Assembly (NCBI GenBank): GCA_028690445.1 | Contig: JAQVBE010000011.1 | Coordinates: forward strand, 28,143 to 92,142 | Length of the DNA: 64,000 nt | Direction of reading: 5' to 3' | Origin: Aliarcobacter sp. | GTDB taxonomy: Bacteria; Campylobacterota; Campylobacteria; Campylobacterales; Arcobacteraceae | Shown here: in pieces, positions 29,241 through 35,365 of the stretch | How positions within the stretch are numbered: position 1 is the stretch's first letter | Layout of the letters: each line of letters starts with the position of its first letter | Program-made: the position numbers and the translations under genes | Notes under the pieces: model-generated | The model's input: only the letters and a program-made list of their open reading frames with translations | The model's database searches: none | Told to the model about the DNA's origin: nothing

Positions 29241-30266
29241 TCAAATCCCTGCTCCATCTTGGAATGTTCTTAATTCTCTTGGAATTATTCCAATAATATC
29301 ACCTTTATTAAGGTTTTTATTTTTAAATTCATGATGTGATATTTCAACTAAAATCGTTTTTGTATTATCTTCTATATCTTCTAAATCAATTTTAACTTGA
29401 GAACCTGCTAATTGTATATATTTAATTTTAGCTTTTGAAATAATATCTTTATCTTCACTTGAAACTATTTCTAACTCATGTGGACGAATATGATATTTTT
29501 GTTCTGAATCATTTTTTCGTTCATGAAATAGATTTACATTTCCTAAAAAGTTGATTACAAACTCATTTGCAGGATTATGAAATACCTCTTCAGGTGTTCC
29601 TATTTGCTCTATTTTTCCCTTTGAAATTACTACAATTCTATCAGCAACTTCAAGTGCTTCTTCTTGGTCATGAGTTACTAAAATAGTTGTAATTCCTAAT
29701 TCTGCTTGAAGCTCTTTTAACCATTTTCTCAAATCTGCTCGAACCTTTGCATCTAATGCACCAAAAGGTTCATCTAAAAGTAATACTTTTGGCTCAACTG
29801 CTAAAGCCCGTGCTAATGCAACTCTTTGTCGCTGACCACCTGAGAGTTGCCAAGGAAATCTGTTTGCAAAACCATCAAGTTGAATAAGTTCTAAAAGTTT
29901 TGTAACTTTTTTATTGATTTGTTCATTTGATAATCGCTCTTTTTTGGGTTTTACTCTTAATCCAAAAGCAATATTTTCAAAAACAGTCATATGTTTAAAA
30001 AGTGCGTAATGTTGGAATACAAATCCAATATCTCTTTCACCTATATTTTTTTTTGCAACATCTATTTTATTAAATAAAATCTCACCACTATCAATATCTT
30101 CAACTGTTTCAAGACCTGCTATCATTCTTAAAAGTGTAGTTTTCCCACTTCCTGATGGTCCTAAAAGTGCCAACAGTTCACCTGGGATTATCTCTAAATT
30201 TATATTTTTAAGAGCAACAAAGTTACCAAAATTTTTTGTTAAATTTTTTACTTCAATTTTCATCAT
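29241..30266 (-). CDS. cysA: Sulfate ABC transporter ATP-binding protein
   Basis: [27 protein letters not shown]; position next to cysW/cysT/sbp. Confidence 0.95.
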
Positions 30267-30282: not shown

Positions 30283-31140
30283 TTATTGCTTTTCTAATTT
30301 GTATAATTCTCTTTGTACTTTCCATTCTAAAATATATTTTAGAACCAAAGTTAAAAGAGCAAGTATTGCCAAAAGAGTTGAAACAGCAAAGGCTGCTACA
30401 AAGTTATATTCGTTATATAAAATTTCAACTTGTAAAGGTATCGTGTTTGTTACACCTTGGATATGTCCAGAAACAACTGAAACTGCCCCAAACTCTCCCA
30501 TTGCTCTTGCATTACATAAAATTACTCCATAAATGAGTCCCCATTTTATATTTGGCAAGGTTACTTTCCAAAATGTTTGAAAACCTGTTGCTCCAAGTAA
30601 AAGTGCAGCTTGTTCTTCATCATTTCCTTGTTCTTGCATAAGAGGAATTAATTCTCTAGCAACAAAAGGAAAAGTTACAAATATAGTCGCTAATACAATT
30701 CCAGGAACTGCAAAAATTATTTGTACATCATTTGCAATTAACCAATGTCCAAACCAACCTTGCGCCCCAAAAAGTAAAACATAAACAAATCCCGAAATAA
30801 CTGGACTTACAGCAAAAGGTAAATCAATCAAAGTTATCAAAAAACTTTTTCCAAAAAACGAATATTTAGCAATTGCCCAAGAAGCTGCAACTCCAAAAAC
30901 TAAATTTAAAGGAACTGCAATTGCAGCTGTTATAAATGTAAGTTTTATTGCTTGTAAAACATATTCATTTGTAAATGATTCAAAATATGCTTCGTAACCT
31001 TTTCTAAAAGCTTCTGCAAAAATTGTAATCAAAGGAGCAACTAACATAATCAACAAAAATGCAACCGCAGATCCAATTAATATATATTTAACTAATCTTG
31101 ATTCACCTTGAGATGATTTTGAATTACTAATAGTTTTCAT
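30283..31140 (-). CDS. cysW: Sulfate ABC transporter permease
   Basis: EYNFVAAFAVSTLLAILALLTLVLK; start at ATG 31140 after GGAGGCAAT. Confidence 0.93.
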   Translation of the reverse strand: MKTISNSKSSQGESRLVKYILIGSAVAFLLIMLVAPLITIFAEAFRKGYEAYFESFTNEYVLQAIKLTFITAAIAVPLNLVFGVAASWAIAKYSFFGKSFLITLIDLPFAVSPVISGFVYVLLFGAQGWFGHWLIANDVQIIFAVPGIVLATIFVTFPFVARELIPLMQEQGNDEEQAALLLGATGFQTFWKVTLPNIKWGLIYGVILCNARAMGEFGAVSVVSGHIQGVTNTIPLQVEILYNEYNFVAAFAVSTLLAILALLTLVLKYILEWKVQRELYKLEKQ

Positions 31141-31991
31141 ATTGCCTCCATACCTTTTCTTCTTGAGCTCCATCTTTGAAGCATATTAATTAATAACAAC
31201 ATTACAAATGAAATCAAAAGCATCACAACTGCAATTGTAGTTGCGCCTGCATAATCATATTGTTCAAGTTTTGTAATAATCAAAAGTATACTAATCTCTG
31301 TTTTCATTGGCATATTTCCAGCAATAAAAACAACCGAACCATATTCACCAAGAGCTCTTGCAAATGACAAAGCAAAACCTGTCAAAACAGATGGAAAAAT
31401 AGTAGGAAGAATCACTTTATAAAATATTTGCCATCGTGTAGCTCCCAAACTTGCCCCTGCTTCTTCTTGTTCTATTTGAATCTCTTCAAGAGCTGGTTGA
31501 ATTGTTCGAACTACAAAAGGAAGTCCTATAAAAATCAGAGCTATAGTAATTCCTATTGGTGTAAAAACTACTTTTATTCCAAGTGGTTCTAAGTATTGTC
31601 CAAACCAACCTTGAGTCGAATACAAAGTCGTAAGTGCAATTCCTGAAACTGCCGTGGGCAGCGCAAAAGGCAAATCAACAATCGCATCAAAAATTCTTTT
31701 TCCAAAAAATGTATATCTTACTAAACACCAAGCAACAATCAAACCAAAAACAGTATTTACAAGAGCTGCAATTAATGAAGTTAAAAAAGTAAGCTTATAA
31801 CTTGCAATTACCCTATCACTTGTTGTTGCATTTATAAATGCTTGCCATCCCATACTAAAAGCTTCAGAGAATAGCGCAATTAGAGGAATTATAACTATGA
31901 TACTTAGATAAAAAATCGTATATCCCATAGTTAATCCAAAACCTGGAATTGGTGATTTTTGCCTTTTTAATATTCCAAAATTTAGTCTCAT
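31137..31991 (-). CDS. cysT: Sulfate ABC transporter permease
   Basis: DLPFALPTAVSGIALTTLYS; ARALGEYGSVVFIAGNMP. Confidence 0.93.
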   Translation of the reverse strand: MRLNFGILKRQKSPIPGFGLTMGYTIFYLSIIVIIPLIALFSEAFSMGWQAFINATTSDRVIASYKLTFLTSLIAALVNTVFGLIVAWCLVRYTFFGKRIFDAIVDLPFALPTAVSGIALTTLYSTQGWFGQYLEPLGIKVVFTPIGITIALIFIGLPFVVRTIQPALEEIQIEQEEAGASLGATRWQIFYKVILPTIFPSVLTGFALSFARALGEYGSVVFIAGNMPMKTEISILLIITKLEQYDYAGATTIAVVMLLISFVMLLLINMLQRWSSRRKGMEAI

Positions 31992-31992
31992 T

Positions 31993-33237
31993 TTAAAATT
32001 TCTCCTTTTTTAAATCTTTTACATTTTTTGGTTCATCAAACCAATATCCTTGAAAATAATCAATTTCTAAATTTTTACAAGTTTCATAAATTTCTTTGGA
32101 AGAAACAAACTCTGCAACAGTTTTTATTCCTACTTTTTTAGCAAAAAAAACTATCGCTTCAACTACTGCTTTTGCTGATTTAGTTTTGTTTATATCTTGA
32201 ATAATAGAGCCATCAAGTTTTATAAAATCTGCTTGTAACTTAACTAAATATGAAAAATTCGAATATCCCGTTCCAAAATCATCAATGGCAATTTTTACTC
32301 CAAGATTTTTTACAACTTTGATAAATGAGATTACCTCTTCAATATTATCAATACCTTCACTCTCTGTTATCTCTATAGTTAGGAAATATCCTATGTCAAA
32401 CTCATAAACTTTTTGAATTAAAAAATCAACAACATCTTTTTCTAAAATGTCACTTATTGATAAATTAATACTAAATTCAATATTTTTATTTTCAAAAAAT
32501 TCAAAAGATTTTTGTATTATTTTTTTTGTAATTTCACTATATAAATTTATTTTTTTTGCCCTATTAATGAAAAAATATGGACTTATAATTTCATCTTTTG
32601 AGTTTTTCATACGAACTAATATTTCATATTTTTTTTCGAACTGATTGCTTATACTTTGAGCAAAAATTTCAAATTTATCCCGTTTAATTGCTTGAATAAT
32701 TTGGGCTTCCCAATATAAATCTTGCTCAATTGATAAAGAGTTTGGATGACAAAAATGTTGTTGTTCTCCATCATAAATAACTAGATTATGTTTTATAACC
32801 CTTGTTTGTTTTAAAGCAAATTCTGCACTAAATAAAAGTTCAGGATAATTTAACGCAACACCAACTCGTAAAGGAATATAAACTCTAAAACCATCTAATT
32901 CAATAGGCGAATAACCAAAATACCAAATAATCGATTTGATTGTTTGTATAAATTTATCTTTTGAAATATCTTCACTTGAAGCAGACGCAAAAATATCTGC
33001 TCCTAGATAATAAATTTTGCTATTTAAAAATTTATTCTCCAATCTTAAAGAGATAACTTTTAATACCTTTTCCCCAAAATCGTACCCATAATAATGATTT
33101 ATATTTCCAAAACCATTAATATCAAAAATAGCTACTTTATTGAATTTATTGTTTTTATTATCTTCTAAAAACTCTTTTCTATTTGGAAGATTAATTTCAT
33201 TTTCTTCATCTATTTTCATATTAAATTTAAACTCCAA
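31993..33237 (-). CDS. Degenerate GGDEF-EAL c-di-GMP phosphodiesterase-like protein
   Basis: YLGADIFA in place of GGDEF; EILVRM, INLSISD, TIEITES, IDDFGTGYSNFSYL, KLDGSII, YFQGYWF EAL motifs. Confidence 0.9.
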   Translation of the reverse strand: MEFKFNMKIDEENEINLPNRKEFLEDNKNNKFNKVAIFDINGFGNINHYYGYDFGEKVLKVISLRLENKFLNSKIYYLGADIFASASSEDISKDKFIQTIKSIIWYFGYSPIELDGFRVYIPLRVGVALNYPELLFSAEFALKQTRVIKHNLVIYDGEQQHFCHPNSLSIEQDLYWEAQIIQAIKRDKFEIFAQSISNQFEKKYEILVRMKNSKDEIISPYFFINRAKKINLYSEITKKIIQKSFEFFENKNIEFSINLSISDILEKDVVDFLIQKVYEFDIGYFLTIEITESEGIDNIEEVISFIKVVKNLGVKIAIDDFGTGYSNFSYLVKLQADFIKLDGSIIQDINKTKSAKAVVEAIVFFAKKVGIKTVAEFVSSKEIYETCKNLEIDYFQGYWFDEPKNVKDLKKEKF

Positions 33238-33247
33238 GAATTTTTAG

Positions 33248-34333
33248 CTATTTATAAATAGCGTCAAATGTTCCACCATCGTCAAAATGTGTTTTTTGTG
33301 CAACTGCCCAACCATCAAACACATCATTGATTTTTACAAGTTCAAGTTTTGGGAATCTTGCTATATCTTCTTTATCTGCAAGTTCTGGTTTATATGGTCT
33401 ATAGTAGTTTTTTGCTGCTAATTTTTGACCTGCTGGTGAATATAAATATTCTAAATATGCTTTTGATACTTCATAAGTTCCGTGTTTTTTTGCATTTTCA
33501 TCAACAACAGCAACAGGAGGTTCAGCAACTATTGATATACTAGGAACAACAATTTCAAATTCATCTTTTCCCAACTCATTAATAGCTAAAAATGCTTCAT
33601 TTTCCCAAGCAAGCAACACATCTCCAATTTTTCTTTGAACAAAAGTATTAGTAGCTCCCCTTGCACCAGAATCAAGAACTGGAACATTTTTGAATAACTT
33701 AGAGATATATTCAAGTGCTTTTTTATCAGCATCTTTATACTTTTGCGAATTTTTATCAACTTTAGTTAAATCACCCAACTCTTTTTTTAAAGCATAAGCA
33801 TAAGCTGCTAAATAGTTCCATCTTGCACCTCCCGAAGTTTTTGGATTTGGAGTAATCACAGAAACTCCATCTTTTATTAAATCATCCCAATCTTTTATGC
33901 CTTTTGGATTTCCTTTTCTAACTAAAAATACAATAGTTGAAGTATATGGCGATGAATTATTTTCTAATTTTGATTGCCAATCTTTTGGAAATAAAGCAGC
34001 TTTTTGGCTTATTACATCTACATCATAACCTAAAGCTAAAGTCACAACATCTGCTCCTAAACCATCAATTACAGCCCTTGCTTGTTTTCCTGAACCACCA
34101 TGGGATTGTTTAATAATTAATGTCTGCCCCGTTTTCTCTTTCCAATAAAATACAAAATCTTTGTTATATGAAGCATATAACTCCCTTGTTGGATCATATG
34201 AAACATTTAAAATCTCTAATGACTTTTTAGAAGCCTCTGCTTTTGAATCATAACTCTCACTTGAAATCCCTAATATTGGTATTAATAATGCGCTTAATAC
34301 AATATTTCTTAAATTTTTTACTATTTTTTTCAT
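33248..34333 (-). CDS. sbp: Periplasmic sulfate-binding protein
   Basis: [57 protein letters not shown]. Confidence 0.96.
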
Positions 34334-34490
34334 CTTGTTGTCTCTTTATAATATAATACACACTAAATGAGTGATAATTTAAAGATTTAAAAAAAATCTC
34401 ACCTTCTCTTTTTCCTAATTAATATACTTTTTTACACATACTACTCATCATTCTGGACCTTTTTTGAGTTTTCTTATAGGTTTTAATCTA

Positions 34491-34512
34491 TCACCTACTA
34501 AATTGGTGAAAT
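34491..34512. promoter_or_regulatory. Candidate Rrf2-family operator upstream of the sbp operon
   Basis: TCACCTACTAAATTGGTGAAAT; minus strand ATTTCACC-N9-GGTGA dyad, near-identical to 35071-35092. Confidence 0.5.
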
Positions 34513-34603
34513 TATAATCACTTTTTTTAACTTTGTCAACCAATTGATAAAAAGTATCTGGATTTTGAACTATTTTTTTAAAACAAAAGATATAGATTAA
34601 GTA

Positions 34604-35065
34604 TTAAATACCTAATCCACCAATAAATTCTTCTTTATAAACATCTTCTTTTGTTATTGGAGTTTGAGCCAAACAAGAGGCAATTGTTGTTCTATCAAGT
34701 ATTTGAGCTGTTAAATTTCTAATATTTAAAAAAATTCTTCTAAAGTGACATTTTTTCTCTTGGCTGCATGATTCATAACTTGAAACCGAAACACATGAAA
34801 TCATTGCTATCATTCCTTCAAAAAATCTAATAACTTCACCTAAAGTAATTTCATCAGATCCTTTTGCCAAAGTATATCCACCATATCTTCCTGGAATACT
34901 TCTAACCCAACCTGCTTTATTCATCTCAAGCATTATATTTTCTAGGAATCTTCTAGGAACATCTGTGGATTCAGAAAGTTCTCGTATAGAAATAGAATTC
35001 TCTTTTATCTCTGCAATTGCAAATAAAGCTCGAAGAGCATAATCTGTTTTTTTTGATATCTTCAT
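34604..35065 (-). CDS. Rrf2/IscR-family regulator with three candidate Fe-S cysteines
   Basis: ISKKTDYALRALFAIAE...RRFLENIMLEMNKAGWVRSIPGRYGGYTLAK; CVSVSSYESCSQEKKC; start moved to ATG 35065. Confidence 0.92.
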   Translation of the reverse strand: MKISKKTDYALRALFAIAEIKENSISIRELSESTDVPRRFLENIMLEMNKAGWVRSIPGRYGGYTLAKGSDEITLGEVIRFFEGMIAMISCVSVSSYESCSQEKKCHFRRIFLNIRNLTAQILDRTTIASCLAQTPITKEDVYKEEFIGGLGI

Positions 35066-35070
35066 AATTT

Positions 35071-35092
35071 TCACCTATTTAATTGATGAAAT
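35071..35092. promoter_or_regulatory. Candidate Rrf2-family operator upstream of the rrf2 gene
   Basis: TCACCTATTTAATTGATGAAAT; minus strand ATTTCATCAATTAAATAGGTGA. Confidence 0.45.
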
Positions 35093-35332
35093 CATATTAG
35101 ATTAATCATTTCATGTCAAGTGCGTTTAATAAAATGACTTAGAATCAGCCAATCTTCACAATTCTAAATGCAACGGCATGCTCATAAATTTTTTTCATTA
35201 CTCAAATTACACCTCCCATACTAATAAATTCTAGTCACATTTATCTAAATATAAACTAAATTATTTTATTACCCAACAATTTGGCTGTATAGCTATTATG
35301 CATAAGTAAATGATTATTTTTTATAAGCTAAA

Positions 35333-35365
35333 AAAAGGGGAAGGATAAAATATCCTTCCCCTTTT
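35333..35365 (-). terminator. Intrinsic terminator of typA
   Basis: AAAAGGGGAAGGATA-AAA-TATCCTTCCCCTTTT, 15-bp perfect stem. Confidence 0.88.

Follow-up and report, generated by a model that had tools for sequence, protein, structure and literature searches.

An EAL-family gene of Aliarcobacter, predicted to encode a cyclic di-GMP (c-di-GMP) phosphodiesterase, lies within a sulfate-transport operon behind a consensus promoter and a putative palindromic operator which recurs ahead of the gene for an Rrf2-family regulator. We consider it probable that the enzyme belongs to an Rrf2-repressed sulfur-acquisition regulon and is induced together with sulfate uptake under sulfur or cysteine shortage, thereby lowering c-di-GMP. 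Gene order, the shared promoter and operator, the catalytic residues and purifying selection, all read from sequence, support this explanation. The strongest evidence is the presence of rrf2 upstream together with the shared promoter and operator, which played no part in an earlier, sequence-only reading of this DNA.

Operon structure and the shared putative operator

The window, the whole stretch analysed, comprises 64,000 nt of Aliarcobacter sp. (assembly GCA_028690445.1, contig JAQVBE010000011.1, positions 28,143-92,142 of the forward strand). From upstream to downstream, its minus strand carries rrf2-sbp-EAL-cysT-cysW-cysA (Table 1), and the order of the genes from sbp onwards, on one strand, is as the sequence-only reading had it. 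The listed EAL reading frame extends to TTG 33237. This start is doubtful and ATG 33219 is probably the true one, because a close ortholog (in G004) has as its sole available start an ATG corresponding to that lying six codons into the window frame, and because GGAG is found 12 nt upstream of ATG 33219. The gap after sbp, previously put at 10 bp, consequently becomes one of about 28 bp, whilst the 1-bp gap claimed between EAL and cysT was confirmed at the junction. The 3'-terminal part of the EAL gene contains the Shine-Dalgarno GGAG of cysT (32002-32005), and G004 and G011 show a 4-bp overlap between these genes. A search of the window for terminator-like hairpins gave none at the sbp-EAL or EAL-cysT junction, and its two weak matches fall within cysT and cysW. 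The proposed co-transcription of EAL with the transporter is a well-supported prediction from the junctions, from the conservation of the operator and from gene order compared across genomes.

Table 1. Features of the locus (window coordinates)
Feature	Position	Strand	Evidence
EAL gene, 408 aa (414-aa ORF)	31993..33219 from ATG; listed ORF to TTG 33237	-	Pfam, alignment, AF2 model, dN/dS
sbp, sulfate-binding protein, first gene of operon	33248..34333	-	NCBIfam PRK10752, 472 bits (cut-off 288)
cysT, sulfate permease subunit, starts 1 bp past EAL	31137..31991	-	TIGR02139 above cut-off; junction
cysW, sulfate permease subunit, overlaps cysT	30283..31173	-	TIGR02140 above cut-off
cysA, sulfate ABC transporter ATPase, last gene of operon	29241..30266	-	TIGR00968 above cut-off
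rrf2, Rrf2-family regulator	34604..35074	-	PF02082, E 8e-35; TIGR00738
Putative operator TTTCACCAATTTAGTAGGTGATA of sbp-EAL-cysTWA operon	34489..34511	-	Palindrome; comparison and matrix scan
Predicted sbp promoter TTGACA-17-TATAAT, 12/12 consensus	34511..34539	-	Operator begins at last -10 base
Putative operator TTTCATCAATTAAATAGGTGAAA of rrf2 (autoregulation)	35069..35091	-	Palindrome; comparison and matrix scan
Predicted rrf2 promoter TTGACA-17-TATGAT, 11/12 consensus	35091..35119	-	Consensus match

The Rrf2 protein has three cysteines spaced C-x8-C-x5-C. Its best specific NCBIfam match is CymR, at 76.4 bits, far below the equivalog cut-off of 195. The gene probably starts at ATG 35065, the GTG at 35074 overlapping the operator. 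Between typA and rrf2, a strong hairpin of 15 pairs with a T-rich tail (35333-35365) is likely to be the typA terminator; its Rfam matches are weak and under the cut-off.

Comparison of the regions before rrf2 and sbp yielded a 23-bp palindrome with a consensus of about TATCACCWATTWAGTAGGTGATA, which begins at, or at most two bases from, the end of a TTGACA-17-TATAAT promoter, a spacing conserved in relatives. This predicted operator, conserved and placed directly after a consensus promoter ahead of both rrf2 and the sbp operon, is the new element of the analysis. As in an Rrf2 regulon, an rrf2 gene is accompanied by a common palindrome at its own and its predicted target promoters. A matrix built from the two window sites alone was scanned over the other loci, the near-identical G008 being excluded along with the window. 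With a threshold of 14 bits, it located 20 sites ahead of rrf2, 14 ahead of sbp, 15 ahead of cysT, four ahead of ssuA-like genes, two ahead of an amino-acid-type ABC operon, one ahead of EAL itself and three elsewhere (one intragenic), against 1-4 sites in controls. Raising the threshold to 16 bits left 42 sites, and five Markov controls of equal length yielded none; these counts are not independent events, since the species are related. Nearly all of the sites at this higher threshold lie directly upstream of rrf2, sbp, cysT, EAL, ssuA-like (sulfonate-uptake) or amino-acid-uptake genes. In the window's own genome, a pattern search returned the exact consensus at two sites only, the rrf2 and sbp promoters, and the more degenerate matches belonged to a group of 30, compared with 16 for a reversed-pattern control.

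The predicted sbp transcript would begin with a leader of some 155-165 nt (34334-34489) ahead of the start codon, the distance from operator to sbp in relatives being 100-178 nt. A riboswitch in this leader was considered and rejected, as the Rfam search gave no match there.

Distribution and gene order across the genus

EAL orthologs were found in 20 of the 32 genomes of the genus, at 76-98% identity, and a strain-specific insertion can therefore be rejected. Conservation across Arcobacteraceae, which the sequence-only reading had put forward as a check, extends to the genus and stops short of the family: among 400 genomes of the order only two genera possess an ortholog, and one genus of Arcobacteraceae does so. 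The other genus (g25) has it in 14 of 24 genomes, at about 50% identity to the window protein and mostly amid unrelated genes, although at two of its loci (L050, L172) cysH-, cysN-, ThiF- and JAB-like genes, the first two recognised by eye, lie a few genes away on the opposite strand. A scan of genome contigs recovered mostly paralogs of 32-42% identity, the sole ortholog being that of Aliarcobacter vitoriensis.

Five arrangements can be distinguished within Aliarcobacter. In the first, rrf2-sbp-EAL-cysTWA, the window is joined by G004 (where the contig stops at cysT), G008, G011, G018, G021 and G014; the last four of these, G008 apart, have a strong box ahead of rrf2 and a weaker one or none ahead of sbp. 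The second places ThiS and/or a ThiF-rhodanese gene between sbp and EAL-cysTWA, sometimes with extra genes between (G016, G025, G023, G020, G006). The third runs sbp-cysM-JAB-ThiS-ThiF-encapsulin 2A-encapsulin cargo cysteine desulfurase-EAL-cysE (G001, G007, G027), long gene chains separating operator and EAL, and in G007 a flavocytochrome-c-sulfide-dehydrogenase-like gene precedes EAL. In G003, EAL stands behind the encapsulin set and directly upstream of cysTWA, the head of the operon, with a box before sbp, being found in L060; G029 looks similar but is cut by a contig end. The fourth, operator-EAL-cysTWA without an intact sbp, has the operator immediately upstream of EAL (G002). In the fifth, typA-ThiF-EAL, rrf2, cysTWA and an operator at the locus are all lacking (G009, G024). 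Taken together, at least 16 of the 20 genomes have a strong operator upstream of EAL and on its strand.

At four loci (L037, L038, L041, L048) the family 2A encapsulin and its cysteine-desulfurase cargo belong to an operator-led sbp-cysM-JAB-ThiS-ThiF operon; in L041, shell and cargo both exceed the NCBIfam cut-offs. The G004 locus (L031) is 98.8% identical to the window in EAL and 95.8% in cysT, compared with 80.6% in sbp and 84% in rrf2, a contrast suggestive of a recombination event whose breakpoint fell between sbp and EAL.

Six genomes (G005, G012, G013, G019, G030, G031) have rrf2-sbp-cysTWA without EAL, the sbp-cysT spacing being 11-69 bp in three of them, and EAL is thus dispensable for uptake. 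Neither rrf2 nor cysT is present in G010, G015, G022 and G028, where the flanking genes adjoin; these genomes (L065-L068) are close relatives by TypA (96-97%) from which the whole rrf2-cysA island is missing. The orders and absences across the genus identify the island as an accessory unit and EAL as an optional but recurrent member of it. Since the species share one island by descent, the arrangements are not fully independent.

It might be supposed that EAL is a gene caught in a mobile sulfur island, co-transcribed by virtue of position alone and with no function related to sulfur. Its presence or absence in otherwise intact sbp-cysTWA operons would fit, as would the unrelated surroundings of the g25 ortholog, the retention of EAL in G009 and G024, which have neither transporter nor rrf2, and the G004 block whose identity differs from that of its flanks. 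We regard this as unlikely, albeit deserving of consideration, since EAL stays in sulfur operons across several arrangements, has its own operator in G002 and adjoins the ThiF-rhodanese gene even where the transporter is gone. Furthermore, dN/dS values against the window gene are 0.05-0.11 for EAL, comparable with the 0.06-0.10 of cysT and below the 0.11-0.23 of sbp, and by half are 0.05-0.09 (EAL) and 0.04-0.18 (GGDEF), indicative of strong purifying selection on both.

A chemoreceptor gene was considered as a fixed member of the island and rejected for the window's group: G022 and G028 have the same MCP (86-90% identity over the first 330 residues) beside the flanking genes, but no sulfate island. 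In other species, a chemoreceptor of 753 aa, with a sensor part unrelated to that of the window's MCP, does lie inside the island (L040, L043, L049 and L052), between EAL and cysT and just before cysT.

Domains and catalytic residues of the EAL protein

The protein matches the Pfam EAL domain (PF00563) with an E value of 2.2e-51 over profile positions 4-236 of 236. In the numbering of the 414-aa frame, a degenerate GGDEF half (residues 20-160 approximately) precedes a complete EAL half (180-403), and Pfam detected no sensor or membrane domain. The GGDEF half scores 23.2 bits, just below the Pfam gathering score of 23.8. Its degeneracy had been recognised from the sequence: YLGADIF replaces GGDEF, and the GG(D/E)EF active site of diguanylate cyclases is absent, orthologs having GADIF, GGDIF or GADNF, so that cyclase activity is not expected. 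In an alignment of 19 orthologs, Asn47 and Asp81 of this half are invariant and Asp39 and Glu56 nearly so; we take these to be probable equivalents of some of the GTP-binding (guanine- and metal-binding) residues of allosteric GGDEF domains such as that of PA0575.

The EIL, TES, DDFGTGYS and KLDG motifs attributed earlier to the EAL half were all found. Residues Glu205, Asn258, Glu289, Asp319, Asp320, Lys340, Glu376 and Gln396 are invariant among 19 orthologs from two genera, and alignment with PA0861 and MorA shows a complete catalytic set, ExLxR, N, E, DD(FGTGYS), K, E and Q. The second Glu of AExVE is a serine (Ser379) in all orthologs. An AlphaFold2 model (pLDDT 82.7) finds its top structural match in PA0575 (TM 0.74), with PA0861, likewise a GGDEF-EAL structure, also matched, whilst sequence searches return PA0861, MorA and DosP. 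With PA0575 (RmcA), PA0861 (RbdA), MorA and DosP the protein shares its fold, the placing of GGDEF before EAL and conserved catalytic residues; it differs from them in having no N-terminal sensor or membrane part and in being encoded in a nutrient-uptake operon. The product is thus predicted to be a soluble, catalytically competent c-di-GMP phosphodiesterase.

A degenerate GGDEF half joined to an EAL half is also the layout of the c-di-GMP receptors LapD and FimX, both of which are among the structural matches. A protein of this kind would bind c-di-GMP and act locally on the transporter or on sulfur enzymes, for instance by coupling c-di-GMP state to sulfate uptake, and the tight coupling of the EAL and cysT genes and the replaced AExVE glutamate could be read in this way. 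Such a role seems improbable, as the core catalytic residues are all invariant, unlike those of LapD and FimX, and the protein is most similar, in structure and sequence, to PA0575, PA0861 and MorA, which are of GGDEF-EAL type. The window's genome has 11 further EAL-domain matches, and these other proteins could mask any effect of the EAL gene.

Proposed regulation and relation to known systems

In the regulation we propose for the phosphodiesterase, Rrf2 would occupy the palindrome just past the -10 box when sulfur or cysteine is sufficient, blocking a strong promoter and repressing its own gene as well as the sulfate operon. Sulfur shortage would release it, allowing sbp-EAL-cysTWA to be expressed as a single message and the level of the enzyme to climb together with that of the transporter. 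Hydrolysis of c-di-GMP would then be expected to shift cells from attached to motile, searching behaviour, lower c-di-GMP favouring motility, and activity may be adjusted by the degenerate GGDEF half, for instance through GTP binding. A sulfur signal is inferred because the target genes are those of sulfate and sulfonate uptake, cysteine synthesis and an encapsulated cysteine desulfurase. The direct link between sulfate availability and c-di-GMP turnover suggested by the sequence-only reading is well supported as regards sulfur, given the junctions, operator and gene order, and less so as regards sulfate; the signal is more likely to be intracellular sulfur or cysteine status, sensed through Rrf2, than sulfate as such. 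In many Aliarcobacter species, sulfur shortage probably changes c-di-GMP levels too. More tentatively, and at somewhat less than even odds, c-di-GMP breakdown may form part of the sulfur-starvation regulon of the genus, a dedicated phosphodiesterase being co-repressed by Rrf2 among operons for sulfate uptake, sulfur carriers and the encapsulated desulfurase, with biofilm being left, or not formed, when sulfur is short.

The earlier suggestion that a link between sulfate and c-di-GMP was undescribed holds for the wiring at operon level, of which no description was found, and not for the link itself, which is known elsewhere. The Shewanella oneidensis EAL phosphodiesterase PdeB (SO0437), which has a PAS sensor, is said to have been connected by Chao et al. 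in 2013 with sulfate uptake and assimilation, motility and biofilm, reportedly on the basis of expression and phenotype. Aliarcobacter would share with it an EAL phosphodiesterase connected with sulfur; here, by contrast, the connection consists in co-transcription behind an Rrf2-type operator. Lowered c-di-GMP in PdeB's host reportedly raises sulfur-gene expression. In Vibrio vulnificus, according to the available part of the report, the sulfate assimilation intermediate PAPS raises c-di-GMP, tying assimilation status to c-di-GMP and biofilm as proposed here, and c-di-GMP alters the expression of sulfate assimilation genes; that part reports no phosphodiesterase in a sulfate operon, whereas in Aliarcobacter a predicted one would be co-induced (PMC6113621). 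With these two precedents, the Aliarcobacter enzyme might be thought to lower c-di-GMP so as to raise sulfur-gene expression, motility being secondary; this is very improbable, as the operon has no c-di-GMP-binding regulator and its visible regulator is Rrf2 with an operator of its own.

The literature searched yielded no account of an EAL gene placed in an operon for sulfate transport or an encapsulin. In four relatives EAL lies in, or right behind, a cysteine-desulfurase operon of the family 2A encapsulin (SrpI) type (PMC8049743, PMC8346489). In Synechococcus, starvation for sulfate induces SrpI (PMC8049743); neither paper uses the terms EAL or Arcobacter in its main text, and cyclic di-GMP is likewise absent from that of PMC8049743. 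The grouping of ThiS, ThiF, JAB, cysteine synthase and sulfate transporter genes recalls the ThiS/MoaD-JAB-E1-like sulfur operons, for which the available part of the account names no EAL gene (Iyer et al. 2006, PMC1779556). In the available part of the A. butzleri genome paper, CysATW-Sbp and a complement of 25 GGDEF/EAL proteins are described independently of each other and are not connected (PMC2147049).

The input signals of most c-di-GMP enzymes are not known. In this case the genome points to one, since production of a phosphodiesterase would be linked to sulfur shortage by a single promoter and a single operator, and it becomes possible to test directly, in culturable species, which nutrient governs which of these enzymes. 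The Rrf2 protein of the genus meanwhile gains a defined, albeit predicted, set of targets. The same operator precedes sulfonate-uptake (ssuA-like) operons at L059, L060, L061 and L064 and an amino-acid-type ABC transporter operon at L060 and L064, so that some species appear to have a wider regulon than the window's genome does.
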